Position numbers and translations under genes: made by a program. Of a stretch of 64,000 nucleotides of DNA, positions 36,330-55,400 are shown piece by piece. The notes beneath the pieces were generated by a model, which searched no databases, was not told where the DNA came from, and saw only the letters and a list, made by a program, of their open reading frames with translations. Numbering within the stretch: position 1 is the stretch's first letter; each line of letters starts with the position of its first letter. Origin of the DNA: Opitutales bacterium (GTDB taxonomy: Bacteria > Verrucomicrobiota > Verrucomicrobiia > Opitutales > Oceanipulchritudinaceae); the NCBI GenBank assembly GCA_020831525.1, contig JAFIGH010000005.1:1-64000 (forward strand), read 5' to 3'.

Positions 36330-36343
36330 AGCTCCACGCTACG
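36328..36343. repeat. Copy of a short dispersed repeat between convergent genes
   Basis: The sequence AAAGCTCCACGCTACG matches 14 of 16 bases of the left arm of the larger REP-like element at 56952-57000 (GAAGCTTCACGCTACG). It overlaps the stop region of both the DUF2264 gene and the convergent glycosidase gene. A role as a bidirectional mRNA 3' end is possible. Confidence 0.4.
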
Positions 36344-38138: not shown

Positions 38139-38273
38139 GGGGCCAGTCTTCTGTCGCCGCACCTTCGTCAAACGATTTGAAGACGAGGTACAGGTGGAAT
38201 CATGAAGGACGCAGCCTCCGGATGCCCGGTGACGGAGTTCGCAAAAACCTGAGAACCTTCAAGGCAGGACAAC

Positions 38274-39256: not shown

Positions 39257-42200
39257 ATGACATTGGAGGAAATCAAGGTCGGTGACCGCATCCATGGGAT
39301 CGAGGCGGGAGAGTGGGTCACGATCAAGAGCCATGAACTGATCGGCGGCGCCTGTGCGGAGATAACCTACCAAACTGCTGCAGGCACTGTCGGGAGCCGC
39401 CTGCTCTACCGCGAGGATGAAGCTCGTCTGCGGGCGGAGGAGCGGCGTGGACCGTTGGGTTTCACGGCGGAACCCGGCCTCTTTCGTTTGGCCTCCGAGG
39501 CTCAGCGGATCAAGCTCGGTTACCTCTTTGACCCCTTTGTGGCGGTAAACACCTCCAATGTCGACCCGCTGCCGCACCAGATCACAGCGGTTTACGAAGC
39601 CATGCTGGGCCGACAGCCCCTGCGTTTCCTCCTCGCCGACGATCCGGGCGCAGGCAAAACGATTATGGCCGGTCTCCTCATCAAGGAGTTGGTCATCCGG
39701 GGCGATGTGGCCAAATGCCTCATCGTCGCGCCGGGTGGATTGGTCGAGCAGTGGCAGGATGAACTCGATCAAAAGTTCAGCCTCCCGTTCGATATCCTGA
39801 CCAACGACGCGCTCGAATCATCGCGTTCGGGCAACTGGTTTCTGGAGCACGATTTTTGCCTGTGTCGGCTCGATAAACTCTCCCGCAATGAGGATGTGCA
39901 GGAGAAGCTCAAAGCCGTCGACTGGGACCTCGTCATCGTCGACGAAGCGCACAAAATGTCCGCCTCCTATTTCGGCAACGAACTCAAACAAACGAAACGC
40001 TTCAAGCTGGGAAAACTCCTCTCCGCGCACACACGGCAGTTCGTGCTCCTCACGGCCACACCGCACAACGGAAAAGAGCAGGACTTCCAGCTCTTTCTTT
40101 CCCTCCTTGACGGTGACCGCTTTGAGGGGCGGATTCGCGACAGCAGTCACGCACAGGACGCCTCCGACCTCATGCGGCGCATGGTCAAGGAGAAGCTCGT
40201 TACGATGCGCGGCCAGCCTCTTTTCCCCAAGCGCCATGCCTACACGCTGCCGTTCAAACTGTCGGATGCGGAAGCCGCTCTCTACGAAGCCGTCACCCGC
40301 TATGTGAGCGACGAATTCAATCGCGCCGACAACCTTGAAAACAACCGCCGCGGCACGGTCGGTTTTGCCCTCACGATTCTCCAACGGCGGCTGGCCTCTT
40401 CGCCGGAGGCCATTTTCCAGAGCCTCCGCCGCCGCCGCGAGCGCCTCGGCAAGCGCCTCCGCGAAGAAAAAATCCTCAAGCGCGGGGCCGAGGTCCGGCT
40501 TGACCGCTTGCCGGGCCTACCGGACCTCGATGAAGAAGCTTTGGAAAACCTCGAGGACTTGCCCGACGCCGAGCTGGAGGACGCCGAGGAAGAAGTGGTC
40601 GATCTCGCCACCGCCGCGCAGACCATTCACGAACTGGAAGCGGAAATCGCCATCCTGCGCGATCTGGAGCGCCAGGCGGCGGATGTTCTCCGCTCCGGAA
40701 CCGATACAAAGTGGGTCAAACTCTCAGAGGCCCTTGATGAAATTGTCCGGGACAAAGCGTCGGGCCACCGCCGAAAGCTCGTTATCTTTACCGAGCACCG
40801 CGACACGCTGCGCTACCTCGAAGACAAGTTGAAGTCCTTTTACGGCTCCGAGGAAGCCATTGTCACGATTCACGGGCAGACCCCGCGCGACCAGCGGCGC
40901 GCTATCCAGGAAGCCTTTACCAACGATCCCGAAGTGCTCGTGTTTCTGGCCACGGACGCGGCGGGCGAAGGGATCAACCTGCAGCGGGCCCACCTTATGG
41001 TCAATTACGACCTTCCGTGGAACCCCAACCGCCTCGAACAGCGCTTCGGGCGGATTCACCGGATCGGCCAGCGCGAGGAGTGCCACCTCTGGAACCTCAT
41101 CGCCGAAGAAACCCGTGAGGCCGATGTCTTTTCCCGCCTCCTCAAGAAGCTCGAACAGGAATGCGAGTCGCTCAACGGTGCGGTTTTCGATGTCCTCGGG
41201 GAACTCTTCAAAGCCAGGAGCCTCAAGGAGCTGCTCATCGACGCCATTCGCCGGGCCGACGATCCCGCCGCCAAAGAATACCTCGACCGGGTCGTTGAGA
41301 CCGATTGGTCCCACGAACGGATTCAGGCGCTTATCGACGAACGCGCCCTGGGCAACGAGGCCCTTTCCGACAGCCATATCCGGGAGCTGTGCGATCAGAT
41401 GGAGCGGGCCAGCCTGCAACGCCTCCAGCCCCACCATGTGGGCGGGTTTTTCCACGCCGCCTTTGCGCAGCACGGGGGTGCCCTCCTGCCCCGCGAGCGC
41501 GACCGGTTTGAAATCCGCCACGTGCCCGCCTCCATTCGGCAGCGCGACCGCGTCGTCGGCCGCAGTGCCCCGGTCCTGCGCTCTTACGAACGCGTGACCT
41601 TTCAAAAAGAGCAAATCCGGCTCGATGGCCATCCTCCCGCCGCCCTCATCGCTCCCGGGCATCCGCTCCTCGACGCCCTCATTGATCTGGTCCTCGAGTC
41701 CAGCCGGGATCTTCTCCGTCAGGGCACCATCCTCGTCGACCCCCACAACCGCACCGCGCGCCCCCGTCTGCTCATTTACATCCTCAGCGAAGTTACGGAC
41801 GGGCGTCCGGCGGGGAGCGGAGCGGGCGGCAAACGCCTCCTTTCCCGTCGCCTGCAGTTCGTTGAAATTGAAGAGGGAGGAACCGCTCACGACGCCGGTT
41901 GTGCCCCCTACCTTGACTACGAAGGCCCCCGCACGGAGGACCGGCCCGCCGTTGAAGCCCTTCTCCGGGCACCCTGGCTTGCCGGAGATCTCGAGGCAAA
42001 GGCCCGCGCCCACGCCATCGCACACCTCGTGCCGGGTCACCTCAGGGATGTCCGCACGCGCCGCGAACACTTTCTCGACAAGACCCGCGATCAGGTCTTC
42101 AGCCGCCTCACCCGCGAAATCAACTTTTGGGATAACCGCGCGACCGATCTGGAGCTGAAGGAGCGCGCCGGAAAAGCTCCCGGCAAACTGAACTCTTCCA

Positions 42201-42778
42201 TTGCCGCCCGCCGCCGCGACGCGCTCACCGAGCGCCTCCGCATCCGCCTCCACGAGATCGAACAGGAGAAGCAGATCAACGCCCTCCCGCCCGTCATCGC
42301 CGGTGGCGCCCTCGTCATTCCCGAAGCCCTCCTGCGCCGGGAGCCCGTGCCCCCCGAACACACCGCAGCCGTTCGCGAAGACCCGGCACCCTACCGGATC
42401 ACCGACACCCGGACCTCCGAACTCGCCGCGATGGAGGCCGTCATGGAGCACGAGCGCGCACTCGGCAACCACCCCCTTGATGTATCCGCCGAAAACCGCG
42501 GCTACGACATCGAATCCCGCTGCGGGCAGACCGGCTCCCTCCGCTTCATCGAGGTCAAGGGCCGCCACCCCTCGGCGCAACACATCACCCTCACGCGCAA
42601 CGAGCTGATCTGCGCCCTCAACAATCCCGACCGCTGGATCCTCGCCTACGTGCCCGTCGCCAACGGCCGCGCCGCCGCCCCCGTCTACCGCACCCACGCC
42701 TTCCACGACGGCATCCCCTTCCACGCCTCCACCTTCAAGATTGAAATCGAAAGTCTGATCGACACTGCCCAAGGATAG
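39257..42778 (+). CDS. SNF2/SF2 helicase with C-terminal DUF3883 domain (defence island)
   Basis: This 1173-residue DNA-translocase-type helicase opens the island. The SNF2-like core has Walker A 'DDPGAGKT' (129-135), DEAH box D229-E-A-H232, motif III 'LLTATPHNG', and a C-terminal helicase lobe with 'ATDAAGEGINLQ', 'YDLPWNPNRLEQRFGRIHRIGQ'-type motifs V/VI. The region ~1058-1140 is a DUF3883 (restriction-endonuclease-like) domain with 'NRGYDIESRC' and 'FIEVKGR'; the E-x-K arrangement resembles a nuclease core, but DUF3883 activity is not assured. Helicases of this build occur with DUF1156 methylases, DISARM-like and other anti-phage systems. No other helicase is present here. It is the first gene of a same-strand series to 52206. 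Confidence 0.9.
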   Translation: MTLEEIKVGDRIHGIEAGEWVTIKSHELIGGACAEITYQTAAGTVGSRLLYREDEARLRAEERRGPLGFTAEPGLFRLASEAQRIKLGYLFDPFVAVNTSNVDPLPHQITAVYEAMLGRQPLRFLLADDPGAGKTIMAGLLIKELVIRGDVAKCLIVAPGGLVEQWQDELDQKFSLPFDILTNDALESSRSGNWFLEHDFCLCRLDKLSRNEDVQEKLKAVDWDLVIVDEAHKMSASYFGNELKQTKRFKLGKLLSAHTRQFVLLTATPHNGKEQDFQLFLSLLDGDRFEGRIRDSSHAQDASDLMRRMVKEKLVTMRGQPLFPKRHAYTLPFKLSDAEAALYEAVTRYVSDEFNRADNLENNRRGTVGFALTILQRRLASSPEAIFQSLRRRRERLGKRLREEKILKRGAEVRLDRLPGLPDLDEEALENLEDLPDAELEDAEEEVVDLATAAQTIHELEAEIAILRDLERQAADVLRSGTDTKWVKLSEALDEIVRDKASGHRRKLVIFTEHRDTLRYLEDKLKSFYGSEEAIVTIHGQTPRDQRRAIQEAFTNDPEVLVFLATDAAGEGINLQRAHLMVNYDLPWNPNRLEQRFGRIHRIGQREECHLWNLIAEETREADVFSRLLKKLEQECESLNGAVFDVLGELFKARSLKELLIDAIRRADDPAAKEYLDRVVETDWSHERIQALIDERALGNEALSDSHIRELCDQMERASLQRLQPHHVGGFFHAAFAQHGGALLPRERDRFEIRHVPASIRQRDRVVGRSAPVLRSYERVTFQKEQIRLDGHPPAALIAPGHPLLDALIDLVLESSRDLLRQGTILVDPHNRTARPRLLIYILSEVTDGRPAGSGAGGKRLLSRRLQFVEIEEGGTAHDAGCAPYLDYEGPRTEDRPAVEALLRAPWLAGDLEAKARAHAIAHLVPGHLRDVRTRREHFLDKTRDQVFSRLTREINFWDNRATDLELKERAGKAPGKLNSSIAARRRDALTERLRIRLHEIEQEKQINALPPVIAGGALVIPEALLRREPVPPEHTAAVREDPAPYRITDTRTSELAAMEAVMEHERALGNHPLDVSAENRGYDIESRCGQTGSLRFIEVKGRHPSAQHITLTRNELICALNNPDRWILAYVPVANGRAAAPVYRTHAFHDGIPFHASTFKIEIESLIDTAQG

Positions 42779-42837
42779 AAGCAGCTTCTCCAAATAAACC
42801 AAGCCATGACATAACCCACCGCCATCCCTGCCCCAGC

Positions 42838-43056
42838 ATGAACTTATCCCGAAAGCGAAAGCATCCCTTCGACCTCTATCTTCCCGGATCAAAAACTTAC
42901 CCGCCGCGCTACTTTGCCACTATCGAGGTCGAGGTTGAGGAGCGTTACGGCGAGACGTGGCTGACGGTGGAATCGCGCGAGAAGATCGACCGACTGCGCC
43001 GACGGGAAATGATCCGCGCAGGCATGCTTCCGGCCGTGCATACCGGCCCTTCTTGA
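42838..43056 (+). CDS. Small hypothetical protein between helicase and PtuA-like gene
   Basis: The 72-residue product is basic and highly charged, starts 'MNLSRKRKHPFDLYLPGSK', and contains an alternating-charge stretch 'IEVEVEERYGETWLTVES' that looks like a beta-hairpin. I recognise no family. The gene lies 59 bases after the helicase stop and 75 bases before the ATPase, on the same strand. It has a normal GC-rich third position. It may be a small component of the island or an unrelated ORF. Confidence 0.5.
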   Translation: MNLSRKRKHPFDLYLPGSKTYPPRYFATIEVEVEERYGETWLTVESREKIDRLRRREMIRAGMLPAVHTGPS

Positions 43057-43131
43057 CAAAGGGCGTGACGGAAGGGCAGAAAAAGCGCCTCCGCCATCAT
43101 CGCCCGACCGTCCCATTGATCCTTTTCATCC

Positions 43132-44412
43132 ATGCATCTACAAACCCTCGAACTCACGAACTTCCGGTGTTTCCGGTCCGCCAAGGTCAACTTCGCGAAA
43201 TCCGTGACCATAATGTTTGCCGAAAACGGTCACGGAAAGTCTTCCATTCTGGACGCGCTGGCCATCGCATTTGACGAGGTCGTGAAGCACCATGTCACGG
43301 GACGCGGGGGGGCGCGCGGCAATGTCGCTTTACGGCGGGAAGACGTGCGGATCGGGGAGGATTCCGCCACCGTTGCCATCGGCGTTCGAGCGGATCGGAA
43401 ATTTGACTTCGAGTGGTCCGATTCCATTCAAATTGAGGGACCTGCGAAAACGCGACATTCTCAGGGCAAGCGCCCCGACGATCTCAAGAGCTATCTGGAA
43501 CGCCAGTGGAACGGCGAAACGCTGGACGATGCTCCGCTCGCGGTGTTCTATAGAGCGCACCGAGCTTTCCGCCACCGGACGGACCCCAAAAACTTCAAGT
43601 TGCGCGCCTTCGAGTCGAAAAACGCTTTTGAGAACGCGTTGGATGCGAGCGCTGGTTTTGAGGCTATCCAACATTGGTTTTACCAAGTCGAAAACGAGGA
43701 GTTGCGCGAGAAAGACAGACGACGGGACTTTGACTACGAGGACCCGAAGCTGAGTGCCGTTCGCCGTGCGATCAGGGGCATGATTCCCGAGGCCGGTCGC
43801 ATGGGTTTCGAAGCGGGCTCGACCGGGCTTTCTATCGAGTGGATTGATACAGCGGGACGGCTGTTTCTCGACCAGCTCAGCGATGGATACCGGACCATCC
43901 TCGCGATGGCCATGGACCTTGCCGTGCGCCTGGTCCTGGCCAATCCGAAGCACGAAGATCCCCTTTCCGCGCAGTGCATCGTTTTGGTGGATGAGATTGA
44001 CCTCCACCTTCACCCCCGCTGGCAGCAGCGGATTATCGGCGATCTTTGCCGCACTTTTCCGGGCGCTCAGTGGGTCTTCACCACACACAGCCCGCAAGTC
44101 CTCTCGACCGTCCGACCGGAGAGCCTTCTTCGGCTGCGCGATGGCGGCATTGAACCGGTTACAGGGCTTCACACATACGGTGTGCAGAGCCACCGCGTCC
44201 TCAACGAAATCATGGAGGTTGCCGCCCGGCCTAACATCCCCGACATGGAGAAAAAAAAGGGCGCGCTCATGCGGGACATCCGGGAGGACGGCGTGTCCCG
44301 CGGGATGGCCCCGCCGCTCCTCGCTGAACTGACGGAGATCCTCGGACCTGACGATCCGTTTATTATCAACGCCAAAGCGGAGATCCTGAAGCGCCGCAAA
44401 TCCTCCCGATGA
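43132..44412 (+). CDS. ptuA: PtuA-like AAA ATPase (Septu defence)
   Basis: The 426-residue protein is an ABC/RecF-like ATPase of the AAA_15/AAA_21 type. Walker A is 'ENGHGKSS' (GHGKSS at 33-38). The signature and Walker B lie at ~260-290: 'LSDGYRTILAMAMDL' and 'LVDEIDLHLHPRWQQRI' (D287-E288), followed by the H-loop 'TTHSPQVLSTV'. The overlap of its stop with the following HNH gene (ATGA) and that gene's identity point to PtuA of the Septu anti-phage system, in which the ATPase controls the HNH nuclease. Similar ATPases also occur in retron Ec78-type systems, but no reverse transcriptase is present here. It sits inside a larger methylase/helicase island. Confidence 0.8.
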   Translation: MHLQTLELTNFRCFRSAKVNFAKSVTIMFAENGHGKSSILDALAIAFDEVVKHHVTGRGGARGNVALRREDVRIGEDSATVAIGVRADRKFDFEWSDSIQIEGPAKTRHSQGKRPDDLKSYLERQWNGETLDDAPLAVFYRAHRAFRHRTDPKNFKLRAFESKNAFENALDASAGFEAIQHWFYQVENEELREKDRRRDFDYEDPKLSAVRRAIRGMIPEAGRMGFEAGSTGLSIEWIDTAGRLFLDQLSDGYRTILAMAMDLAVRLVLANPKHEDPLSAQCIVLVDEIDLHLHPRWQQRIIGDLCRTFPGAQWVFTTHSPQVLSTVRPESLLRLRDGGIEPVTGLHTYGVQSHRVLNEIMEVAARPNIPDMEKKKGALMRDIREDGVSRGMAPPLLAELTEILGPDDPFIINAKAEILKRRKSSR

Positions 44413-44993
44413 GGTCGCTTCCGGTTCCCATCGAAACCACTGCGCTCAGGCGAACCCGCCAAAACCATCCGGGCGGCCCGTGGGAGCGCTTGGAGGGTGC
44501 ATCAAAGCGCGAGTTGAAATTGGTTTTGCTCGAAAACCAACAAAACGTTTGCGCATGGTGCGAAGTCACCATCGGTGCGGACAACTCACACCTTGACCAC
44601 ATCCGCACGAGGAACACGAGTCCGCAGCTCATCTTTGCCGTGGATAATCTCCTCGCGGCCTGCCAGAATCCGCGCACTTGCGGTCACGGACGACAAAACA
44701 AGGGCAGCCTCCCGCCATGGGTTCATCCATATGAAACGGAGGATCTGGAAGACCGTATAGACTACTACCCGGATGGTTCGCTCGTGCCGGCTTCAATCCT
44801 TTCGGAAGCCACCCAACGGGAGGCCGATGAAGCGATCAACCGACAGCTCAACCTGAATGCGGATACCCTGAAGGAAAGACGTGAACGCCGCATGGTCGAG
44901 ATTGGGACCTACTGCGGGCAAGGCTTCACCGTCGAAGATCTAATGGAAATCCTTCCCGACTTTCCCACATTGACGAAAAAACTTTGCCGTTAG
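44409..44993 (+). CDS. ptuB: PtuB-like HNH endonuclease (Septu defence)
   Basis: The 194-residue protein matches the TIGR02646/PtuB-type HNH family. A first zinc pair C48-x-x-C51 ('NVCAWCEV') precedes 'SHLDHIRTRNTS' with the candidate catalytic D63-H64. The second part has 'DNLLAACQNPRTCGHGRQNKG', giving further zinc cysteines and the terminal N/K-G of the HNH fold. In Septu the HNH protein degrades DNA or RNA under control of the ATPase. The start ATG overlaps the ptuA-like stop. The methylase start lies two bases after its stop, so all three genes are probably co-translated. Confidence 0.8.
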   Translation: MRSLPVPIETTALRRTRQNHPGGPWERLEGASKRELKLVLLENQQNVCAWCEVTIGADNSHLDHIRTRNTSPQLIFAVDNLLAACQNPRTCGHGRQNKGSLPPWVHPYETEDLEDRIDYYPDGSLVPASILSEATQREADEAINRQLNLNADTLKERRERRMVEIGTYCGQGFTVEDLMEILPDFPTLTKKLCR

Positions 44994-44995
44994 CC

Positions 44996-47977
44996 ATGCC
45001 CGCGAGCCCGCCGAAGAAACTGATTGAAGTCTCCATTCCGCTGAAGGAGATCAACGAGGCCTGTGCGCGGGAGAAATCGATCCGGCACGGGCACCCCTCG
45101 ACCCTGCACCTGTGGTGGGCGCGGCGTCCGCTCGCGGCGGCGCGGGCCGTTCTCTTTTGCCAGTTGGTGGACGATCCTTCGGGCTATGTCGACGAACTCC
45201 TCGCCGACAAGGCGAAGCGCCGCCGCGCGCAGGAGGAGACCGATCTGGAGCTGAAGATGGTGCCCCACGCCTCGCCCAAGCTCGAAGAGCGCCTCGTCGA
45301 GCGCGAGCGCGAGCGCCTGCACGACCTTGTGAAGGAACTCGTGCTCTGGGAGAACACGGGCAACGAAGCCCTCCTGCGGCGCGCGCGGGGCGAAATCCGC
45401 GCCTCCTGGGAGCGGCACTTGCGCCGCCGGGGTCTGCCCGCCGACACGCCCTTGCCCCCGGTGCTCGATCCCTTTGCCGGGGGCGGGGCCATTCCCCTGG
45501 AGGCCCAGCGCCTGGGCATGGAGGCCCATGCCTCCGACCTCAACCCCGTGGCCGTGCTCATCAACCGCGCCATGATCGAGATCCCGCCCAAGTTCGCCGG
45601 CCAGCCCCCGGTCAATCCCGACTGGCAGGGCAAGCACGCCGGGGAACGGTCCGTCACACCCTGGGCCGGAGCGCGCGGACTGGCCGAAGACGTGCGCCAC
45701 TACGGGCAATGGATGCGCGACGAGGCGGAAAAACGCATCGGCCACCTCTACCCGCCCTACACCCTCACGCAGGAGCTGATCGATACCCGGCCCGACCTCC
45801 GGAAGGCGGGCTACCGCGCGGGAGACCCGCTCACCGTGATCGCCTGGCTCTGGGCGCGCACCGTCCCCAGCCCCAACCCCGCCCTGCACGGTCAGCCCGT
45901 GCCCCTTGTCTCCTCCTTTTGGCTCTCGAAAAAACCGGGCAAGGAGGCATGGGTCGAACCCGTTGTGGAAAACGGTACCTACCGCTTCGCCATCCGCCTC
46001 GGACCGCCGCCAAATCCCGCCGCCGTCGACAACGGCACCAAGAGCGGACGGGGGGCCAACTTCACCTGCGTGCTTTCGGGCGTGCCGCTGACCCCGGCCC
46101 TCATCAAGGACGCTGGCATGACCGGCACCCTGGGTGCCACCCTCATGGCCGTTGTCGCCGAGGGACAGCGCGGGCGCGTTTACCTGCCCGCCGATGCTGT
46201 CCAAGAAACGGCCGCGACCGCCGCCGATCCGACATGGCGGCCCAGTGAAAAGCAACCGGATAATCCGCGTTGGTTTTCACCGCCGGACTACGGTATGGCG
46301 ACCTACGGCGACCTCTTCACTCCCCGTCAACTGGTCGCCCTGACGACTTTTGCCGACCTTGTCGGGGAGGCGCGCGATCGGGTCCTGGCCGACGCTGAAG
46401 CCGTCGACCACCTGCCCGCCGACGCCAAATCCCTCGAACAAAACGGCCGCGGCCCCCAGGCCTATGCCGACGCTGTCGCGGTGTATTTGGCGCTGGGGGT
46501 GAGCAAGACTACCAATAATTCATCCTCAATAACTTCATGGATGAGTGATCGCGGAGCCTTTAGGGAAACCTTCGCCCGACAAGCAATACCCATGACCTGG
46601 GACTACGCCGAAGCAAACATTCTGTCGGATATCGGTGGCAGTTTTTCTTCGTCTATCAGCAAAGGGGCAATGGCGATAGAGGCCCTTCCGTGTAATGCTC
46701 CCGGTTTTGTGGCCCAGCGGAACGCGTCGACCAGAGAAATCCCAGAAGGTGCAATCTTATCATCCGATCCACCTTATTACGACAATATCGGATATGCTGA
46801 CCTTTCTGACTTCTTCTATGTTTGGCTTAGGAGATCACTTCAAACGACCTTTCCACGTTTTATGGGGGGAATTTTAGTTCCAAAAGACGAGGAGTTGATT
46901 GCTTCCCCCTATCGCCAAGGAAACAGGAAGGACGCTGAAGATTTTTTTCTAGATGGGATGTCGAAAGTAGCCCACAGATGGGCGTTAGGATCGAGCGATG
47001 TTTATCCAGCAACCATCTATTATGCCTTCAAGCAGGCAGAAATCAAATCCGAGGGTCTGGTGTCTACCGGTTGGGCGGTCTTTCTTAGCGCGTTGATCAA
47101 TGCTGAGTTTTCAATACTGGGCACGTGGCCAATGCGGACTGAAAGTCCGGGTAGACTGATCTCAAAAGGAACAAACGCGCTCGCCTCCTCCATCGTCCTC
47201 GTTTGCCGCCGCCGCCCGGCGGACGCGGAGACGATCACCAAGCGCGAGTTCATCGAAGCCCTTGAGACGGAGTTGCCGGAGGCTTTGCGCGAGCTGCAAC
47301 ATGCCAACCTCTCCCCGGTCGACTTGCCCCAGTCGGCCATCGGCCCGGGCATGGCCATTTTCTCCCGCCACGAAGCCGTCATCAAGAGCGACGGTGAAGC
47401 GATGTCGGTGACGGAGGCCCTCCAGCTCATCAATCACGAACTTTCGGGCATTCTCGACGGGCAGGTGTCCGACATGGACGCGGACACCCGCTTTGCCTGC
47501 AAGTGGTTTGCCCAGCACGCCTTTAAGGCGGGGCCCTATGGCGACGCCGAAATCATCGCCAACGCCACCGATGTCTCCGTCGAGGGCGTCGTCGCGGCGG
47601 GCATCTTCGAGTCGGGCAAGGGCAAAGCCCGCCTTTTCCGTCCGGGGGAACTGGACCCCGCATGGAACCCGGCGACCGAGGCCCGGCTCACGGTGTGGGA
47701 GATTGTCCACCACCTCATCCGCCTCGGCGAGACGGCGGGCGATACCGCTGCCGCGCGCGTCCTTGCCGCCCTCCCGCACGCCGTCGCGGCGGAGGCCCGC
47801 CAGCTCGGCTACCGCCTCTTCACCCTCTGCGACCAAAACGGCTGGAGCGCCGAAGCCCAGGCCTACAACCAGCTCATCAGCCAATGGCAGGACTTCGCCG
47901 ACCTCGCCGTGACCCTCGAACAGGAGAAACCCCGCCCAACCCAGGCGGATCTCTTTCCCGGGAGTGCCGATGCATGA
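44996..47977 (+). CDS. DUF1156-containing adenine-type DNA methyltransferase (defence island)
   Basis: This 993-residue protein begins with the DUF1156 signature 'KEINEACAREKSIRHGHPST', then 'LHLWWARRPLAAARA'. SAM-binding motif I is 'LDPFAGGGAIPLEAQRLG' (D158-G164). The catalytic motif IV is D591-P-P-Y594 in 'SSDPPYYDNIGYADLSDFF', typical of N6-adenine or N4-cytosine methylation. The long insert between the motifs probably holds the target-recognition region. DUF1156 methylases are found with DUF499 ATPases and helicases in defence islands, presumably marking self DNA. I start at the ATG at 44996; an in-frame TTG at 44984 lies inside ptuB. The stretch ~46500-47170 has lower GC and different codon use (see separate feature). 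The stop overlaps the next start. Confidence 0.9.
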   Translation: MPASPPKKLIEVSIPLKEINEACAREKSIRHGHPSTLHLWWARRPLAAARAVLFCQLVDDPSGYVDELLADKAKRRRAQEETDLELKMVPHASPKLEERLVERERERLHDLVKELVLWENTGNEALLRRARGEIRASWERHLRRRGLPADTPLPPVLDPFAGGGAIPLEAQRLGMEAHASDLNPVAVLINRAMIEIPPKFAGQPPVNPDWQGKHAGERSVTPWAGARGLAEDVRHYGQWMRDEAEKRIGHLYPPYTLTQELIDTRPDLRKAGYRAGDPLTVIAWLWARTVPSPNPALHGQPVPLVSSFWLSKKPGKEAWVEPVVENGTYRFAIRLGPPPNPAAVDNGTKSGRGANFTCVLSGVPLTPALIKDAGMTGTLGATLMAVVAEGQRGRVYLPADAVQETAATAADPTWRPSEKQPDNPRWFSPPDYGMATYGDLFTPRQLVALTTFADLVGEARDRVLADAEAVDHLPADAKSLEQNGRGPQAYADAVAVYLALGVSKTTNNSSSITSWMSDRGAFRETFARQAIPMTWDYAEANILSDIGGSFSSSISKGAMAIEALPCNAPGFVAQRNASTREIPEGAILSSDPPYYDNIGYADLSDFFYVWLRRSLQTTFPRFMGGILVPKDEELIASPYRQGNRKDAEDFFLDGMSKVAHRWALGSSDVYPATIYYAFKQAEIKSEGLVSTGWAVFLSALINAEFSILGTWPMRTESPGRLISKGTNALASSIVLVCRRRPADAETITKREFIEALETELPEALRELQHANLSPVDLPQSAIGPGMAIFSRHEAVIKSDGEAMSVTEALQLINHELSGILDGQVSDMDADTRFACKWFAQHAFKAGPYGDAEIIANATDVSVEGVVAAGIFESGKGKARLFRPGELDPAWNPATEARLTVWEIVHHLIRLGETAGDTAAARVLAALPHAVAAEARQLGYRLFTLCDQNGWSAEAQAYNQLISQWQDFADLAVTLEQEKPRPTQADLFPGSADA
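46500..47170 (+). other. Low-GC mosaic patch inside the methylase gene
   Basis: Sample blocks here have about 42-53% GC (hand counts at 46561, 46621 and 46801), while a block just after the patch (47521) has about 62%. Codons such as TTA, AGA, AAT, TCA and CTA, otherwise rare here, cluster in the patch. The edges are sharp near 46500 and 47170. The patch covers the DPPY motif and its surroundings. The reading frame is intact. Allelic exchange within the gene is the simplest explanation; constrained codon use is the alternative. Confidence 0.7.
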
Positions 47978-48167
47978 AGCTACCGAATTGGCGCGCCTTA
48001 TTGAGGCGTTGGCCGATGTGACCCAAGACCGAAACGAGGTCACGGCCTGGCTTCAGGAACCGAATGAGGCTTTCGAGGGGTCTACCCCCTTGCAGGTGAT
48101 CGAGCGGGGCGAGTCGGACCGCTTGTGGCGAATGATTTACTTCCTGCGCTCCGGTGACCCGTCGTGA
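47970..48167 (+). CDS. MbcA/ParS/Xre-type antitoxin C-terminal domain protein (orphan)
   Basis: The 65-residue product resembles only the toxin-binding C-terminal domain of Xre/MbcA/ParS antitoxins (DUF2384): 'EVTAWLQEPNEAFEGSTPLQ' followed by 'VIERGESDRLWRMIYFLRSG'. The usual N-terminal helix-turn-helix is absent, and no RES or other partner toxin lies nearby. The ATG at 47970 overlaps the end of the methylase gene, and GGGAG sits about 7 bases upstream, so it is probably translated with the methylase. It may be a truncated antitoxin or an anti-toxin/anti-defence decoy. Too short for more. Confidence 0.65.
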   Translation: MHEATELARLIEALADVTQDRNEVTAWLQEPNEAFEGSTPLQVIERGESDRLWRMIYFLRSGDPS

Positions 48168-48221
48168 CGGTGGGGCGCATTTCACTTGCCTGCCGGGCAG
48201 GGGTTCCATTATGCAACCATT

Positions 48222-48461
48222 ATGAACATCACCGTGAAAGATCTTCCGGAACCGGTCCATGAACGGTTGAAAGAAGCGGCTACCGCCACCGGGAGAAGCC
48301 TCAACAAAATGATCGTCCACACCCTGGAAAGGGCGGTCATGCCAACCGTAACGGACCGCAGGGAGCTTCTGGGCCGGATTGCCCGTTTCCGTGGAGAGAG
48401 CCCCCTGCGCATTGAGAGTCTGGAAGAGATCGAAGCGGCGGTAAACGAGGAGAGGCCGTAG
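48222..48461 (+). CDS. Ribbon-helix-helix antitoxin (FitA/VapB type)
   Basis: The 79-residue protein has an Arc/FitA-like RHH N-terminus: 'MNITVKDLPEPVHERLKEAA' with the following helix 'TGRSLNKMIVHTLERAV'. Its acidic tail would cover the toxin ('RIESLEEIEAAVNEERP'). RHH antitoxins neutralise the PIN toxin and repress their own promoter. I choose the ATG at 48222 because it begins the RHH strand exactly. The stop (TAG 48459-48461) is one base before the toxin start, as in VapBC pairs. Confidence 0.85.
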   Translation: MNITVKDLPEPVHERLKEAATATGRSLNKMIVHTLERAVMPTVTDRRELLGRIARFRGESPLRIESLEEIEAAVNEERP

Positions 48462-48462
48462 T

Positions 48463-48855
48463 TTGATCGTCGTCGACAGCAACATTCTCCTTTATCTCCT
48501 CATTGAGGGCGACCGCACCGGGGCGGTGGTCCGCCTGCAGGAGCGGGAACCGGTTTGGGTGGCGCCGCGGCTCTGGCTGGACGAGTTTCTCAATGTCCTA
48601 TGCACCTACGAACGCCTCGGTCGGACGACGGCGGCGGAGAATCTTCGCCGCGTGGAATTGGCGGGTGAAGTCGTGGCGCGCAGCTACTTCGTCCCGCCCG
48701 CGCGCACACTCGCCCTCGCGCGCCGCACCGGTTGCTCGGGCTACGACAGCCAGTTTCTTGCCCTCGCGGAAGACCTCGGCGTTTACCTTTACACGTTTGA
48801 TGAAAAAGTCCTAACCTCCGCACCTGATCTCGCCCGCTGTCCCCCGGCGGCGTGA
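48463..48855 (+). CDS. vapC: VapC-type PIN-domain ribonuclease toxin
   Basis: The 130-residue PIN protein carries the acidic residues of the active site: Asp5 in 'IVVDSNILLYLL', Glu in 'WLDEFLN', and Asp in 'SGYDSQFLALAEDLG', with a final Asp near 'LYTFDEK'. VapC toxins cleave tRNA or rRNA when the antitoxin is lost. The start is a TTG at 48463 after AGGAG; it restores the canonical N-terminus, and no ATG does. The pair lies between the methylase and the DUF499 gene, so it may be a stabiliser of the island or part of the response to phage. It is not closely similar to the VapC at 57336. Confidence 0.88.
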   Translation: MIVVDSNILLYLLIEGDRTGAVVRLQEREPVWVAPRLWLDEFLNVLCTYERLGRTTAAENLRRVELAGEVVARSYFVPPARTLALARRTGCSGYDSQFLALAEDLGVYLYTFDEKVLTSAPDLARCPPAA

Positions 48856-48882
48856 GGTCCGCACGGTTGATCGTCCACAAAC

Positions 48883-51800
48883 ATGGCACTCTCCAATAAG
48901 CAACGCATCGGGCAGGCGCTCGACGAACTCAAGCCGGCGCTCCTCGCTTACGTGGAGCCCGTCCTCACGGAAGCGGGCCGCGGGCCGCGCAGGAGCGAAG
49001 TCCAACAGGCCCTTGGCGAGACCGGGGTGCGTGTGATCGACGGCGAGGTGCACTGGGATGTGCAGGGCCTTCTGAAGATGATGATCAAGCTCTGGGGGCC
49101 TCTCTTTTCGCCGCGCTTTGATAAGAACGAACGGGCGCGCATGCGTTCCCTTATTCAGGAAGCCAACGACATCCGTAACCGCTTCGCGCACGATGTGCCG
49201 TTTTCCTACGACGACACCTACCGCGATCTCGATACCCTGGGCCGCGTGGCCGAGGCAACGGGCGGAACCGAGGCGGCGCGGAAGCTGCGTGAAATGGCCA
49301 AGGGCGTCATGCGCGTGCAGTTCCAGGAGGAGGCCCGCAACGAGACCCGCCGCACCGCTGCCATGGAGGGCACGCCGTTGGCGGCGCTGAAGCCGTGGCG
49401 GGAGGTCATCGCGCCCCACAGCGATGTGGCCAAGGGGAATTTCCTTGAGGCTGAGTTTGTCGCCGATCTCCACGCCGTCTACCAGGGACGGGCCGGGAGC
49501 GAATACGGCGATCCGCGCGAGTTCTTTGCCCGCACCTTCCTCACCGCCGGGCTCAAGGATCTTCTGCGCCGCGCGCTCGTGCGACTCACCGGCGGGGGCG
49601 GCAGCCCCGTGCTCGAACTGAAGACCAACTTCGGGGGCGGCAAGACCCACTCCCTCCTGGCCCTCTACCACCTCTTCGACGCCATCCCCACCACCTCGCT
49701 CGCGGGCATGGATGAGCTGCTCCGTGAAACCGGCATCAACGATTCGCCGACGGCGCGGCGTGTCGTCATCGCCGGGCACCAGCTCGGCGTGAATCAGCCG
49801 CGCAAAAAGCCCGACGGCACGCTTGTGCGCACGCTTTGGGGTGAGGTGGCCTACCAACTGGGCGGAGCGGCCGCCTTCGACCGGGTGCGCTCTTCCGATG
49901 AGTCGGGAACCAATCCCGGTGCCGAGGTCCTGGCGGAGATCATGGGCGCGTCCGGACCCTGCCTCATTCTCATTGATGAATGGGTCGCCTATCTGCGGGA
50001 CACGGTCGATGCGGATGGCCTCGCAGCGGGGTCTTTCGAGTCGAACTTCGGCTTTGCCCAATCCCTCACCGAGGCCGCGAAGGTGGTGCCGCACGCCCTC
50101 GTGGTCGCCAGCTTGCCCGCATCCCAAATCGAGATGGGCGGCCCGCGGGGCGTGGCCGCCTTCGAACAGCTTTCCAATCTCTTCAAGCGCGTCGCCACTC
50201 CATGGCAATCGACGCGCGCGGAAGAGGGCTATGAAATCGTCCGCCGCCGCCTCTTCGAGTCGCACATGGACTATCCCGCCCGCGATGCCGTGGTGAAGGC
50301 ATTCCACGAACTCTACCGCTCGGGCAAGAGCAACTTCCCCTCCAACTGCTCGGAGCAGGAATACCGGCGCAAGCTGGAGGCCTGCTACCCGATCCATCCG
50401 GAGCTGTTCGACAAACTGGACGGTGTGTGGTCGACCCTTGAGAAATTTCAGAAGACGCGCGGGGTTCTGCGCTTCATGGCCGCCGTCATTTCCGAGCTTT
50501 GGCAACGGGAAGACCGCAATCTCCTCATCATGCCGGCTTCGGTGGCTCTCGACAGCCCGCGGATCGCCTCCGTCATCAAGGAAGTGCTTCCCGGCGGAGG
50601 TAGTTGGGACGGCGTGATCAGCACCGACATCGACGGACAGGGTGCGCAGGCCCATCTCATCGACAGCGACAACAGCGGGCTCGGCCGTTACTCCGCTTGC
50701 CGGCGGGTGGCGCGCTCCATCTTTATCGCCGCCGCCCCCACGAGCGGTCCCAACCGCGGCGTGGACGACCAGCATCTCCTCCTTTCCTGCGTTCAACCGG
50801 GGGAGAACCCGGAGAAATTCGGCGATGCCCTGCGACGCCTTTCCGACAAAGCCACCTATCTCTACCGCGACGCCGCGCGCTCATGGTTCGCCCTGCAGCC
50901 AAGTGTATCGCGGCTCGCGCAGGACCGCATCAAAACGTCTCTTGAAAGCGACGAACCGGAAGCGGAGATCGAGTCGCGCTTGCGTCGGTGGGAAGGAAGA
51001 AGCGTCTTCCCGGGTGGTGCCCAACGGGCGCGCGTCCCGGCGGATGTCGCCGACGAAAACAGCGTGCGCCTCGTCATTCTGCCGCCCTCGGCATCCACCT
51101 CGAAGAATGCCGAAGGGTCGGCCGCAGTCGAATTGGCCACGGAAATCCTTACGCAAGCCGCCAACCGGCCGCGCACCTACCGCAACGGTCTCCTCTTCCT
51201 TGCGCCCGACGAGGCCCATCTCATGCGTCTGCGTGAAGCCGCCGCCGCCTATCTCGCCTGGCAAAGTATCGAACGCGACCAGGATAGCCTCGAACTCACC
51301 AACCACGACAAGGCCCAGACAGCCCAGAAAATCCGCGAGTGCGGCGAGACCCTCGCCACGCGCATGGGCGACACCTGGGGCCATCTTCTGGTTCCATCCG
51401 TAAAGGATCCGAAATCCGGCGCAATCACCTGGGGAACGGTCCCCTGTCCGGGCGGGGGCGACAAAATCCGCGCCGCCCTCAAACGGCTGTGCGAAAAGGA
51501 ACTGGTGCACGACAAGTTCAATCCCTTCCACCTGAAACGTGAACTTGAACGCCATCTCTGGGGAACGCGCGACCATGTCAGCACGCGTGCTGTGGACGAC
51601 GCCTTCGGCACATACCTCTTCTTTCCGCGGCTTCTGCGGCGGGAACTGCTCACCGATGCGATCCGCGCAGGCTTCAGCGGAGAAAGCCTCCTCTGCGAAT
51701 ATTTCGGCTACGCCGATGCCTTCGACGAGGACACGGGCAAATATGCCGGACTTCACGCAACCACCGTCCCCGGCGTCGTCACCATCGGAGAGAGTGTTCT

Positions 51801-52206
51801 CATCAATCCGGATGTCGCCATGGCGCACCTCCCGGAAACCTCCACCGCGAATCCCGGCAATACGACCAGCGCTACCGCAGGTGCCGGAACCCCAAGTGTT
51901 CCGGCACCCCGTCCGGGCACAAGCGGGAAAAATCCCGGCACAACCGGCAATGGGGCGGCGCCTCCCGCTCCCTTGAAAACCCGCTTTTACGGGGCCGTCG
52001 AAATTCCCCCGCAGCGGGTTACCTCATCCGTGCAAAAAGTCGTCGACGAAGTCATCCAGCACCTCTCCGCCAAATACGGCACCCAACTCAAAATCACGCT
52101 CGATATCAGCGCGGAAAACCCGGAAGGCTTCGACGAAGCAAGTGTCCGCACGGTCTCGGAAAACGCGAACACCCTCGGATTCCAACCAAGAAACGGGTTC
52201 GAGTGA
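48883..52206 (+). CDS. HEPN (Swt1-like)-DUF499 AAA+ ATPase (defence island)
   Basis: This 1107-residue protein joins two parts. The N-terminal ~130 residues form a Swt1-like HEPN domain with the RNase motif R98-N-R-F-A-H103 (R-x4-H) in 'ANDIRNRFAHDVPF'. The rest is a DUF499 ATPase: Walker A 'FGGGKTHS' (251-256), Walker B 'LILIDEWVAYLRD' (D365-E366) and long C-terminal helical regions. A Gly/Thr/Pro-rich linker (~985-1030) precedes a short C-terminal domain ending 'LGFQPRNGFE'. DUF499 ATPases accompany DUF1156 methylases in defence islands. The HEPN motif suggests RNA cleavage as an output, possibly gated by the ATPase; this is inferred. The gene ends the same-strand series that begins at 39257. 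A partial hairpin at 52216-52241 follows but lacks a convincing U-tract. Confidence 0.88.
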   Translation: MALSNKQRIGQALDELKPALLAYVEPVLTEAGRGPRRSEVQQALGETGVRVIDGEVHWDVQGLLKMMIKLWGPLFSPRFDKNERARMRSLIQEANDIRNRFAHDVPFSYDDTYRDLDTLGRVAEATGGTEAARKLREMAKGVMRVQFQEEARNETRRTAAMEGTPLAALKPWREVIAPHSDVAKGNFLEAEFVADLHAVYQGRAGSEYGDPREFFARTFLTAGLKDLLRRALVRLTGGGGSPVLELKTNFGGGKTHSLLALYHLFDAIPTTSLAGMDELLRETGINDSPTARRVVIAGHQLGVNQPRKKPDGTLVRTLWGEVAYQLGGAAAFDRVRSSDESGTNPGAEVLAEIMGASGPCLILIDEWVAYLRDTVDADGLAAGSFESNFGFAQSLTEAAKVVPHALVVASLPASQIEMGGPRGVAAFEQLSNLFKRVATPWQSTRAEEGYEIVRRRLFESHMDYPARDAVVKAFHELYRSGKSNFPSNCSEQEYRRKLEACYPIHPELFDKLDGVWSTLEKFQKTRGVLRFMAAVISELWQREDRNLLIMPASVALDSPRIASVIKEVLPGGGSWDGVISTDIDGQGAQAHLIDSDNSGLGRYSACRRVARSIFIAAAPTSGPNRGVDDQHLLLSCVQPGENPEKFGDALRRLSDKATYLYRDAARSWFALQPSVSRLAQDRIKTSLESDEPEAEIESRLRRWEGRSVFPGGAQRARVPADVADENSVRLVILPPSASTSKNAEGSAAVELATEILTQAANRPRTYRNGLLFLAPDEAHLMRLREAAAAYLAWQSIERDQDSLELTNHDKAQTAQKIRECGETLATRMGDTWGHLLVPSVKDPKSGAITWGTVPCPGGGDKIRAALKRLCEKELVHDKFNPFHLKRELERHLWGTRDHVSTRAVDDAFGTYLFFPRLLRRELLTDAIRAGFSGESLLCEYFGYADAFDEDTGKYAGLHATTVPGVVTIGESVLINPDVAMAHLPETSTANPGNTTSATAGAGTPSVPAPRPGTSGKNPGTTGNGAAPPAPLKTRFYGAVEIPPQRVTSSVQKVVDEVIQHLSAKYGTQLKITLDISAENPEGFDEASVRTVSENANTLGFQPRNGFE

Positions 52207-52255: not shown

Positions 52256-52345
52256 TTTTTAGACGAGGCGGTGCGCCTTACAGAAGTGGTGCGGCGCATG
52301 CGCAAGATGGAGTTCAAGGGCAAGGTAGGATGACCAAGCCCTTCG
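52256..52345 (+). pseudogene. Remnant of a Phd-VapC module (antitoxin tail plus toxin start)
   Basis: The end of a frame here encodes 'EVVRRMRKMEFKGKVG' and overlaps, as ATGA at 52330, a start encoding 'MTKPF'. The intact module at 57079-57806 ends its antitoxin 'EEVRRMREMELEGEEG' and starts its toxin 'MTKPF' with the same ATGA overlap. The DNA of 52283-52337 matches 57289-57343 at 48 of 55 positions. The rest of the antitoxin and toxin is missing. After 'MTKPF' the toxin frame continues without a stop into the CotH gene, so a 5' toxin fragment became an in-frame leader of that gene. Confidence 0.8.
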
Positions 52346-52419
52346 CCGGGCCCCGTTTCCGTGCGCGCTCTACGCGAATCGGTTTGTGTATCCGGAGCAC
52401 CGTGCAATGCTTGCGGAAA

Positions 52420-55400
52420 ATGCCCCTTTTTCATTGTTCGCGCCCCCGCATTCTGCGCATTCTTGCGTTTACACTCCTCCTCACCGCCGGTTCCGCCGAG
52501 GCGACGGTGCGAATCAACGAGTTCATGGCCTCGAACGGTGCGACGCTCGCCGACGAGGACGGCGACTACGAGGACTGGATCGAACTGCGCAACTTCGGTG
52601 ATGCGCCGGTCTCCCTCGACGGCTGGGGGCTCTCCGACAACGCGGGCAATCCCTTCAAATGGGTTTTCCCCGAGGGAACCGTCCTTGAGCCGGACGGCTT
52701 TCTCCTCGTGTGGGCTTCGGGCAAGGACCGCGGCGGCACGGGGTCCGGGAACGACACCGAACCGCTGTCTCCCGATGCCGTGGACGGGCTTGTGCTGCGC
52801 CTGCGCGCGGCTGATTTGGAGGCGGCCCATGGCGCCGGCGTCGCCGTGTGGCCGGATACGAGCGGCCGCGGCAACAACGCCTTGCAACCGCAGGGTGCGC
52901 GCCGTCCCGTCTTCGCCGCCGACGGTCTGAACGGGCGTCCGGTGCTCCGCTTCAACCGCTCCGCCGCCCAGCAGTACTTCCTGCCGACCGCCGGCTTCGC
53001 AGGCATGCAGGATTTCACGGACTTCACCTTTCTCGCCGTAGCCCGTTGGACGGGCGGGGCGCGGTCCGGATTTTTCGGGGGCTACCGCGGCACAAACCCG
53101 GCCAACGCGGGCAGCAGCGTCGTGGAAATCAGCGACACGGGCGGAGGGTTCCGCCTGAGGCTCCCGCCCACTATCGATGTAACCGCCCCCAACGCCCTTA
53201 CGCAAAACCAGTGGCATGTGGTCGGGGCGTTCATGGACGGAGCGGCGGCGCGGGCGCGCCTCACGATTGACGGTGCGCTCCTTGCGGAGGCCAGGGGAAC
53301 GGTCGGACGCACGCTCCTCGCCGACTACGAAAGGGTGCCCGTGGGCAGTTCCCACGACGACACCCGCACCTTCGGCGGCGATATCGCGGAGGTGCTGCTC
53401 TTCAACCGCGGCCTCTCCGCGGAGGAGCAGGCGGGGGTGGAGCGCTACCTCGAAGCCTACTACGGCTTGGCGGACGGCCCGCGCCATCCGCACACGAACT
53501 TCCGCATCGCCGCGGCGGGAGAGGAACTGCTCCTCACGCGACCGGACGGCACGCTGGTGGATTTTATCGATCCCGTGCCGGTGCCACGGGATGTTTCCTT
53601 CGGCCGCACGCTGGAGGAACCGGAGACATGGGCTTACTTTTACGAGTCCACCCCCGGTGCCGCCAACACGACAACACCGTTTTCCTCGCTTCTTGAACCG
53701 GTGAGCCTGTCCCGTGCGGCGGGTGCCTACAGCAGTGCGTTCGATTTGACCCTCTCGCATCCGGATCCGGAGGTCACCGTAATCTACACGCTCGACGGTT
53801 CCGAGCCCGACATCGACAACCTCGGCGGCTCGACATACAGCTACGTCAACTCGTACCCGGACGGTCCTTTCCTGCAAAACACGTTTGCCACCCGTGCTTA
53901 TGCCGGTCCCATACACATTGCCGACCGCAGCGGCGAACCGGACAAGCTGGCGCGCATCTCCAGCACGGCGGATTCGAGCCCGTCCTATTTTCCGCTTTCG
54001 CCGGTGAAGAAGGCGACCGTGGTGCGGGCGCGCGCCTACCGCGACGGCGCCGCCGGCCCGGTGACGACGGCGACTTACTTTGTCTCCGCCGCCGACGCCT
54101 TCGCTTACGATATGCCCGTCGTTTCCCTGAGTGTGGATGAGAACGGTCTCTTCGACTTCTTTGACGGGATCTACGTCGCGGGGGTCGACCATGCCACGGG
54201 GAGCGGAGCGCGCATCTGCAACTGGGGCAACTACAACCGCCGCGGACGGGAGAACGAACGTGCCGCGCACATCGAGTTCTTTGCGGACGGCTCGCGCTTT
54301 CTCGAACAGGCCGGCGGCATACGTATCCAAGGGAATTGCTCGCGCCAGGGGGCGTTCAAGAGCCTCCGGCTTTACGGGCGAAGCAGCGGCTTGGAGGACA
54401 ATGTATTCGATTTTCCCTTCTTTCCCGAGCGCGTTCCCGGCGCGGTTTATCCGGACAACACGCTCCACCGGCGCTTGATCCTGCGCACCCCGAACTTCTA
54501 CGACACAGCCTTCAGCCGCCTGTACCAAGCAGTCTACGAAGGCGTGGGCGGCCGCGTCCGGCCCGTGAAGCAATTCCTCAACGGTGAGTACTGGGGCATG
54601 GCGTTTTTGCGCGACCGTTTCGATCCCTACTATCTGGAGTACCACTACGGGCTCGATCCGGACAACATCACAATCATCGGGATGTCCTACCGGCACGAGT
54701 TCGAGCCGATACCGATCAGTTTCAGCAACCGTGTGTATTCGCTTTCGAGCGGCATCCCGGAGGACATGGCGGCCTTCGACGCAATGCGCTCCTTTATCAT
54801 CGGGAGCGATATGTCCGACCCCGTGCGTTTTGCCGAAGCGGAGGAATGGATTTGTATCGACTCGTTTATCGATCACCTCGTCCTCAAGATCTTCGCCGGC
54901 GACGACCACTACGCCCCGGAGATCGTCTACTGGCGGGCCCGCGAAGCGAAGAACGACGACTTCGGCGACGGGCGCTGGCGCTTCTTTGTGAAGGATTTCG
55001 ACTCCACGCTGCGCTCCGGCAATTATGTCGCCGGTCTTGCCACGGGCACCCATCCGCGCCCGTTCGGCCATGAGCTTTTCACGAGCCTCCTCGACAGCCC
55101 GGATTTCCGCACCCGCTTTATCAACCGCTTCGCCGATCTGCTCAACACGCACTTTCTGCCGGAGCGCTTCGAGGAGATCATCCGGCACGCCTACGACGAG
55201 GTTGCTCCGGTCTGGCCGGAGGTGACGGCGCGCTGGAGAAACACTTCCCTGAGCAACCCCGACCGTCCGTTCACTCCAGACAACCGCGCCAACCTGCTGA
55301 ACTGGGCACAACACCGCCCGGCCGTGCAGCGCTCACACCTCCGCAGTCACTTTTTGCTCCAGACACAGCGGACGCTCACAGTGGATGTATCCGATCCGTC

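Follow-up and report, generated by a model that had tools for sequence, protein, structure and literature searches.

Septu and VapBC-type genes as probable exchangeable cargo within an Hma defence operon of an Opitutales bacterium

The window analysed here, a 64,000-nucleotide (nt) stretch of an Opitutales genome (GenBank GCA_020831525.1, contig JAFIGH010000005.1, positions 1 to 64,000), contains a block of eight open reading frames (ORFs) in which a helicase, a DUF1156 methylase and a DUF499 ATPase are encoded together with a nested Septu pair and toxin-antitoxin genes (Table 1). These genes had been listed in a first-pass annotation made from the letters alone, and the ORF list, Pfam and PADLOC find every one that it named on the plus strand where it had been placed. 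Its view that the helicase, methylase and ATPase form a defence-associated set is borne out: the set is complete and, with its three genes together on one strand, belongs to Hma, a system that the first-pass annotation had not named and for which Type-1 BR, a Type-1 BREX-related system centred on DUF499, is another name (PMC12839542). A complete Septu pair and toxin-antitoxin genes do lie inside this set, the former in the gap between HmaA and HmaB (A-B gap) and the latter in the gap between HmaB and HmaC (B-C gap).

Nine proteins were scanned against profiles, namely the eight of the block and the product of the gene that follows it. HmaA matches its PADLOC profile with 1512.6 bits (E 0) over residues 1-1171 and carries the Pfam domains SNF2-rel_dom, Helicase_C and NOV_C, the last with 69.4 bits at residues 1055-1138. 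We take NOV_C to be the later name of DUF3883 and to have a PD-(D/E)XK fold; a D..E-V-K motif can be read in the HmaA of the window. HmaB, whose ORF opens further up at a TTG (position 44984), reaches 1273 bits in PADLOC (E 0) and 92.8 bits for Pfam DUF1156, and its DPPYYDN motif, presumably that of amino-methyltransferases, is invariant in 10 of 10 aligned HmaB sequences. The PADLOC match of HmaC (923.5 bits, E 4e-278) covers residues 168-1102, i.e. the part behind the HEPN domain, while Pfam finds both DUF499 (83.8 bits) and HEPN_Swt1 (60.7 bits), and RNRFAH and GGGKT motifs can be read. Pattern searches in any of three frames, carried out over the loci surveyed below, recovered Walker A and DE-[AC]-H from each of the 64 near-complete HmaA and D..E-x-K from 62 of them, a looser [DNS]PP[YF] pattern from 91 of 91 loci, GGGKT from 73 of 74 HmaC, and RN..AH from 37 of 46 HEPN-bearing HmaC, the nine without this pattern being not necessarily inactive. 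As for BREX proper, neither PglZ nor BrxC was seen for the nine proteins among the matches listed (all rows for HmaB and HmaC, the best 25 of 63 rows for HmaA), and the BrxH matches to the helicase (322.8 bits) fall far under its match to HmaA.

The pair in the A-B gap consists of adjacent genes for a PtuA ATPase and a PtuB HNH nuclease and belongs to Septu type I. PADLOC profiles, which had been suggested as a check, return both Hma and Septu from the proteins of the window. The spacing described earlier is correct where the PtuB start overlaps the PtuA stop (ATGA), where two bases separate PtuB from HmaB and where the next ORF overlaps the HmaB stop; the general statement that the gaps are small fails between HmaA and PtuA, where 353 nt hold an antitoxin stub (ORF 42838-43056) that had been missed. 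The Walker A lysine, signature serine, Walker B DE and H-loop histidine of PtuA are invariant in seven of seven aligned Hma-nested sequences, as are H64 and N80 of PtuB. PtuB has no Pfam match at E 0.01; it passes NCBIfam TIGR02646 (63.8 bits, cut-off 52.15), stays under the NCBIfam equivalog cut-off for the PtuB of retron Ec78 (82 of 150 bits) and, at 194 amino acids (aa), is the shortest of eight nested PtuB. No reverse transcriptase family appears in the Pfam lists of the nine scanned proteins, which places the pair outside Septu type II and retron I-A. The reading frames of the three Hma and two Septu genes are uninterrupted, have the length usual in their families and retain the key motifs. 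Aligned with six other nested PtuA, that of the window shares no more than 36% identity with any of them. Another contig of the same genome carries a second PtuA (G000:C11:5844-7106, locus L134; 34% identical) with a PtuB match alongside; no HmaA or HmaB match lies within its 1.5-kb flanks, and it falls in a different part of the PtuA tree.

The B-C gap encodes a ribbon-helix-helix (RHH) antitoxin directly before a PIN-domain toxin, with 1 nt between the two genes, which is a VapBC/FitAB pair; a further 27 nt separate the PIN gene from HmaC. Two other antitoxin ORFs of the block are stubs. The 67-aa ORF 47964-48167, which had been taken for an antitoxin gene, lacks all but the C-terminal part of an Xre/ParS-type gene, which a sister locus, L037, has in full (139 aa): it scores 29.3 bits for Pfam Xre_MbcA_ParS_C, 61 aa of it are 87% identical to the C-terminus of the L037 gene, and the start codon of the stub overlaps the HmaB stop region. 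Possessing the C-terminal domain only, it reaches 30.4 of the 90 bits required for RES/Xre systems (ParST, MbcTA) and is not one of them, and the three RES toxin matches in the genome of the window are all on other contigs. In the HmaA-PtuA gap, positions 42844-43011 encode 56 residues that are 55% identical to residues 10-65 of a 182-residue MqsA-type frame in L037 (E 3.8e-16); the stub alone gave no profile match. Ratios of non-synonymous to synonymous differences (pN/pS) against L037 are 0.16 for HmaA, 0.27 for HmaB, 0.18 for HmaC, 0.47 for the MqsA-type stub and 0.15 for the Xre/ParS stub, a level of constraint close to that of HmaA; all of them are a guide only, as synonymous sites are near saturation and the values for the stubs include the time before truncation. 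No partner toxin gene for either stub was found in the gaps of the window.

Table 1. Genes and gene remnants of the Hma block, followed by the genes flanking it (positions in the window).
Feature	Position	Strand	Basis or remark
HmaA, SNF2-type helicase with C-terminal NOV_C / PD-(D/E)XK-like nuclease domain	39257-42778	+	PADLOC, Pfam
Truncated N-terminal remnant of MqsA-family antitoxin gene (72-aa ORF, helix-turn-helix part missing)	42838-43056	+	L037 match
PtuA, ABC-type ATPase of Septu	43132-44412	+	PADLOC 332.2 bits, E 1e-99
PtuB, HNH nuclease of Septu	44409-44993	+	PADLOC 97.2 bits, E 3e-28
HmaB, DUF1156 DNA amino-methyltransferase (DPPY motif)	44996-47977	+	PADLOC, Pfam
Xre/ParS-type antitoxin stub, C-terminal toxin-binding domain only	47970-48167	+	Pfam, L037 match
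FitA/VapB-like RHH antitoxin	48222-48461 (listed ORF opens 48186; likely start ATG 48222)	+	Pfam FitA-like_RHH 37 bits, cut-off 27
PIN-domain toxin (VapC-like)	48463-48855	+	Pfam PIN 36.6 bits, residues 2-115, cut-off 23.6
HmaC, HEPN_Swt1 (residues 11-125) fused to DUF499 ATPase	48883-52206	+	PADLOC, Pfam
LysR-type regulator, divergent from HmaA	38274-39182	-	Pfam HTH_1, LysR_substrate
Glycoside-hydrolase-like gene	36339-38171		Outside block
CotH/LTD protein	52330-56925		Outside block

The sister locus L037 (JAFIGG010000045.1, an Opitutales genome bin) is the closest relative of the window among the best 80 of at least 584 relatives, with identities of 84% for HmaA, 73% for HmaB, 80% for HmaC and 64% for the divergent LysR-type regulator. 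Its gaps contain neither Septu nor VapBC, and its genome bin, which may be incomplete, has no PtuA match at E 1e-10. The L037 A-B gap encodes a 153-aa protein without a Pfam or PADLOC match, an MqsA-type antitoxin (MqsA_antitoxin 30.2 bits against a cut-off of 30, and HTH_3; under the TIGR03830 cut-off with 53.3 against 61.8), a SecB-like protein (29.7 bits, cut-off 26) and a reverse transcriptase. The last (L037:8589-9935, between HmaA and HmaB) is over the NCBIfam Drt2 cut-off (499.6 against 390 bits). The first three, in this order, are reminiscent of toxin-antitoxin-chaperone systems such as CmdTAC (reported in PMC11618068); no toxin was identified in this set in the L037 A-B gap. The whole Xre/ParS-type gene of L037 has a weak helix-turn-helix match in front of the part that is preserved in the window. 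Two proteins flanking the L037 Hma unit (L037:460-1230 and L037:18707-19510) are alike by eye and resemble HNH nucleases.

Between the two sister operons the carrier is kept and the cargo differs, and the window retains pieces matching two L037 genes. A stub of an apparent earlier occupant in the slot suggests that cargo has been swapped over time, and the simplest reading would be that an ancestor of the window had toxin-antitoxin cargo that was later lost and replaced, Septu presumably being gained after that loss. Stubs as a common feature of such loci were rejected: in the other loci searched, the two L037 antitoxins, the 154-residue frame of L037 and its Drt2 have no match at E 1e-4 save the two stubs of the window, and the SecB-like protein has a single weak match (L053, 25%).

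For the survey, genome contigs were scanned with a profile from a 10-sequence HmaB alignment, which gave at least 584 confirmed relatives; the best 80 were kept (L026 was dropped, being on the same contig as L049), and the frequencies below are valid for HmaB like that of the window, not for all Hma. Genes in relatives were taken as the longest non-overlapping ORFs, and gaps were measured from tblastn ends with approximate lengths, leaving out 22 of the 80 loci for the A-B gap (contig end, or HmaA not found in cis) and 13 for the B-C gap. The gap exceeds 600 nt in 41 of 58 measurable loci for A-B and in 25 of 67 for B-C. Among the 54 loci in which both are measurable, it does so only in A-B in 21, only in B-C in 4, in both in 17 and in neither in 12, and thus 42 of 54 loci carry something in at least one gap; ten further loci from a search of the phylum gave 7/9 for A-B and 3/9 for B-C. 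Most cargo ORFs of at least 150 aa (145 of 156) lie on the Hma strand, and 119 of 206 cargo ORFs are unrelated to any other in the set. Profile scans covered the forward-strand cargo ORFs of at least 100 aa in the 80 named loci (85 A-B and 48 B-C, with Pfam for the A-B set only), and their PADLOC matches comprise PtuA/PtuB, the Hma-embedded candidate (HEC) families HEC-01 and HEC-02, and many ATPase families that share a domain. Septu is among the most recurrent cargo families, with eight loci; another family has eight members in seven loci. One six-member ATPase family is confined to B-C gaps in this survey (L085, L089, L091, L097, L116 and L029), and its two tested members score best as HEC-02; other families use both gaps. 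A replacement of the HEPN domain of HmaC by B-C cargo was unsupported, such cargo occurring in 12 of 38 loci with HEPN against 13 of 23 without (Fisher p 0.066), and the HEPN trait itself changes only twice on the tree.

We located Septu with a PtuB profile built from eight nested pairs, which a search through the cargo of both gaps had found, and ran it against the six-frame ORFs of the window, of the 80 named loci and of the ten phylum loci, 91 loci in all; the eight building sequences match by construction, and a PtuB elsewhere in the 91 loci would also have shown. Nine loci match (the window, L029, L048, L050, L080, L085, L107, L114 and L096), all of them upstream of HmaB and eight with HmaA in cis, the L096 contig having no HmaA in view; no match occurs in the B-C gaps or flanks of the 91 loci. 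With both neighbours in view, Septu is therefore seen only in the A-B gap, in eight loci including the window. The first-pass annotation had proposed scoring neighbourhoods for PtuA/PtuB between helicase and methylase: the same slot does recur, and it is not filled in this way in most of the loci searched (PtuB in 9/91). The pair is the last before HmaB in seven of the eight loci with HmaA, four more ORFs following it in L080. In all of these eight but the window, PtuA begins no more than some 50 nt from the end of HmaA or overlaps it, which makes the 353-nt gap of the window with its stub unusual. In the 63 loci where both gaps could be measured, A-B gaps account for 16.7% of the DNA outside the core, yet all eight Septu pairs are there, for which uniform placement has a probability of ~6e-7 (~4e-6 for seven pairs, without the window); these placements cannot be treated as wholly independent, because a single insertion could travel by gene exchange. 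ATPase pairs in B-C gaps were rejected as Septu for ten tested proteins of L058, L068, L087, L089, L097 and L103, which score best as HEC-01 or HEC-02 and have partners that are not PtuB.

In L089, 47 codons of a PtuA N-terminus are left in the 392-nt A-B gap (L089:6439-6579; 53% identity with the window at E 1e-14), and the B-C gap holds a HEC-02-like pair. Of 19 short A-B gaps this is the one with such a remnant, a sign that Septu can also be lost from the slot. The two antitoxin stubs of the window and the PtuA stub of L089 are direct traces of cargo turnover; the literature searches that were made, none of them aimed at such stubs, brought up no report of stubs left by replaced Hma cargo.

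On an HmaB tree of 66 rows, built by a quick method with support from the Shimodaira-Hasegawa-like approximate likelihood ratio test (SH-aLRT) only and with L076 and L035 skipped for a broken HmaB frame in extraction, eight changes are needed to account for the eight Septu loci, starred branches forcing every one of them. Shuffled labels need 7.6 changes on average, and Septu shows no clustering beyond theirs. This scatter indicates that Septu was gained, exchanged or lost repeatedly in the slot. Nested and stand-alone PtuA are mixed on a PtuA tree of 26 rows (five changes, at least three forced), where the PtuA of the window sits on a long branch and joins no well-supported small group. The phylum sample has at least 19 PtuA places in 17 of 387 genomes, a lower bound because the search scored few candidates per genome (up to 4 for PtuA). 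Two of these are in an Hma locus (the window and G199), and around the other 17 neither a full HmaA nor a full HmaB is seen up to about 1.5 kb away, contig ends cutting some of these flanks short. At L125, one of these 17, PtuAB lies beside a 57-residue remnant like the HmaB C-terminus; its label as standing alone is doubtful, and the remnant possibly points to a Septu that outlived its Hma carrier.

Upstream of the block, the divergent LysR-type gene has counterparts in the same position in L037 and L033 (26%), and its product is a possible regulator of the Hma unit in this phylum. It was rejected as a general Hma part: of 47 loci whose upstream sequence is long enough, three, counting the window, have it next to HmaA. 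Far upstream, two adjacent and very long ORFs of 4102 and 5392 aa occupy positions 2723-15031 and 15028-31206 of the plus strand.

Very probably, then, the block is a restriction-like system of the Hma kind (Type-1 BREX-related, DUF499-centred) that carries defence cargo open to exchange in its two internal gaps, Septu in A-B and a VapBC-type pair in B-C. On this view the carrier is known and its cargo exchangeable, and the whole is no fixed composite system of a new kind; no difference was seen in the Hma core, and the combination of Septu, VapBC and two antitoxin stubs is found in this locus alone among those examined. By homology, HmaB would mark self DNA by adenine (amino) methylation, HmaC would scan or sense through its DUF499 ATPase, the helicase and nuclease domain of HmaA would destroy unmarked invading DNA, and the HEPN RNase on HmaC would be a last-resort effector. 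PtuAB would form an autonomous second layer, perhaps cutting tRNA-Tyr on infection as in a Septu that has been studied, and the RHH/PIN pair a putative RNase toxin-antitoxin module, both being independent layers that would profit from expression and inheritance together with Hma.

Several points weigh against this reading. The roles given to the products of this locus are predictions from homology. The confinement of Septu to the A-B gap rests on PtuB: with a broader profile derived from PtuA, the 27 cargo ATPase matches divide into 14 in A-B and 13 in B-C gaps. The survey draws on the best 80 of at least 584 relatives, and on the quick HmaB tree the eight changes could mean losses as well as gains. 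At 55% identity only, the MqsA-type stub may derive from a related toxin-antitoxin cargo, not the same one as in L037. With 353 nt between HmaA and PtuA, one transcript is not assured; a promoter and terminator scan stayed at the shuffled expectation and listed no site in that gap.

It is unlikely that Septu is wired into Hma, with PtuAB responding when Hma is active or when phage inhibits it, and all five genes forming one system. The 2-nt spacing of PtuB and HmaB in the window, the confinement of PtuB to one slot and the recurrence of Septu among cargo families speak for such a layered machine, and a backup role has been proposed for nested OLD-ABC/nuclease pairs (PMC12839542). Against this, Hma occurs in L037 with no PtuA detected in its genome bin, 17 of the 19 PtuA places of the phylum sample are outside Hma, and nested PtuA are not one clade, that of the window being remote in sequence from the six others. 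The fixed, cooperating unit envisaged in the first-pass annotation is accordingly unsupported. That annotation had also held that the nesting would be chance insertion if close relatives carried the set without Septu and the pair occurred elsewhere independently; both largely proved to be so (L037; 17/19), and the conclusion still fails, because the same slot is used in scattered lineages. Insertion into a defence island with no selection on position would account for cargo that differs even between sister loci, for remnants of other toxin-antitoxin genes in both gaps, for the many cargo ORFs that lack relatives and for a Septu scatter like that of shuffled labels; it is quite improbable nonetheless, as it leaves unexplained both the concentration of all eight Septu pairs in a sixth of the non-core DNA and the shared strand of most cargo.

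Two truncated antitoxin genes with no partner toxin gene in the gaps could also be taken to mean that the whole unit is breaking down and no longer functions, which we regard as very improbable for a block whose Hma and Septu genes are intact and whose three Hma genes have pN/pS values of 0.27 or less against L037. Something of a long shot is the idea that the A-B gap is a dedicated exchange site in which cargo is replaced wholesale between sister operons and leftover antitoxin pieces are kept as working parts, the 65-codon Xre/ParS C-terminal domain serving, against RES toxins encoded at other places in the genome, as a sensor subunit or minimal antitoxin. Exchangeable cargo in an Hma carrier makes this locus a clear case, with a near sister at hand, of one defence operon carrying others: Septu and VapBC here, as opposed to an MqsA-type antitoxin, a SecB-like protein and Drt2 in L037. 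Slot specificity may be a general trait of such cargo; if it proves true in larger samples, why Septu sits between HmaA and HmaB becomes testable.

The first-pass annotation had wondered whether this gene order was already described, and it is indeed in print: Hma often lies next to Septu type I (PMC8565338), and an example of nesting given in PMC12255303 is 'Septu in Hma systems'. HNH/OLD-ABC pairs, PIN and other nucleases are known inside or beside BREX and BR loci, and a division of labour has been put forward, with self DNA shielded by the methylase, invaders recognised by the DUF499 ATPase and degraded by the helicase-nuclease, and HEPN acting as a suicide RNase (PMC12839542). The methylase is classed with N6-adenine enzymes in one source (PMC12839542) and as m5c in another (PMC8565338). 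Defence genes inside the Hma operon are also the subject of 'guilt-by-embedding' (bioRxiv 10.1101/2024.01.29.577857, as reported in PMC12988326, PMC12111858 and PMC12255303), with HEC described in PMC12988326 and PMC12111858. The locus of the window shares with Hma the same three proteins, the HEPN fusion on the ATPase (present in part of the family), the nuclease domain of the helicase and the association with Septu type I. With Septu type I it shares the same two genes, the ATGA overlap and the ATPase and HNH motifs, and it differs in that the pair is nested between hmaA and hmaB. The principle is that of HEC, whose HEC-01 and HEC-02 profiles match the cargo of relatives and score best for seven ATPase or partner genes tested from B-C gaps of other loci, whereas the window has Septu and a toxin-antitoxin pair as cargo. 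DarTG2 in a type I restriction operon under RptR (PMC12255303) is likewise toxin-antitoxin cargo in a restriction-like operon, with another carrier and another cargo.

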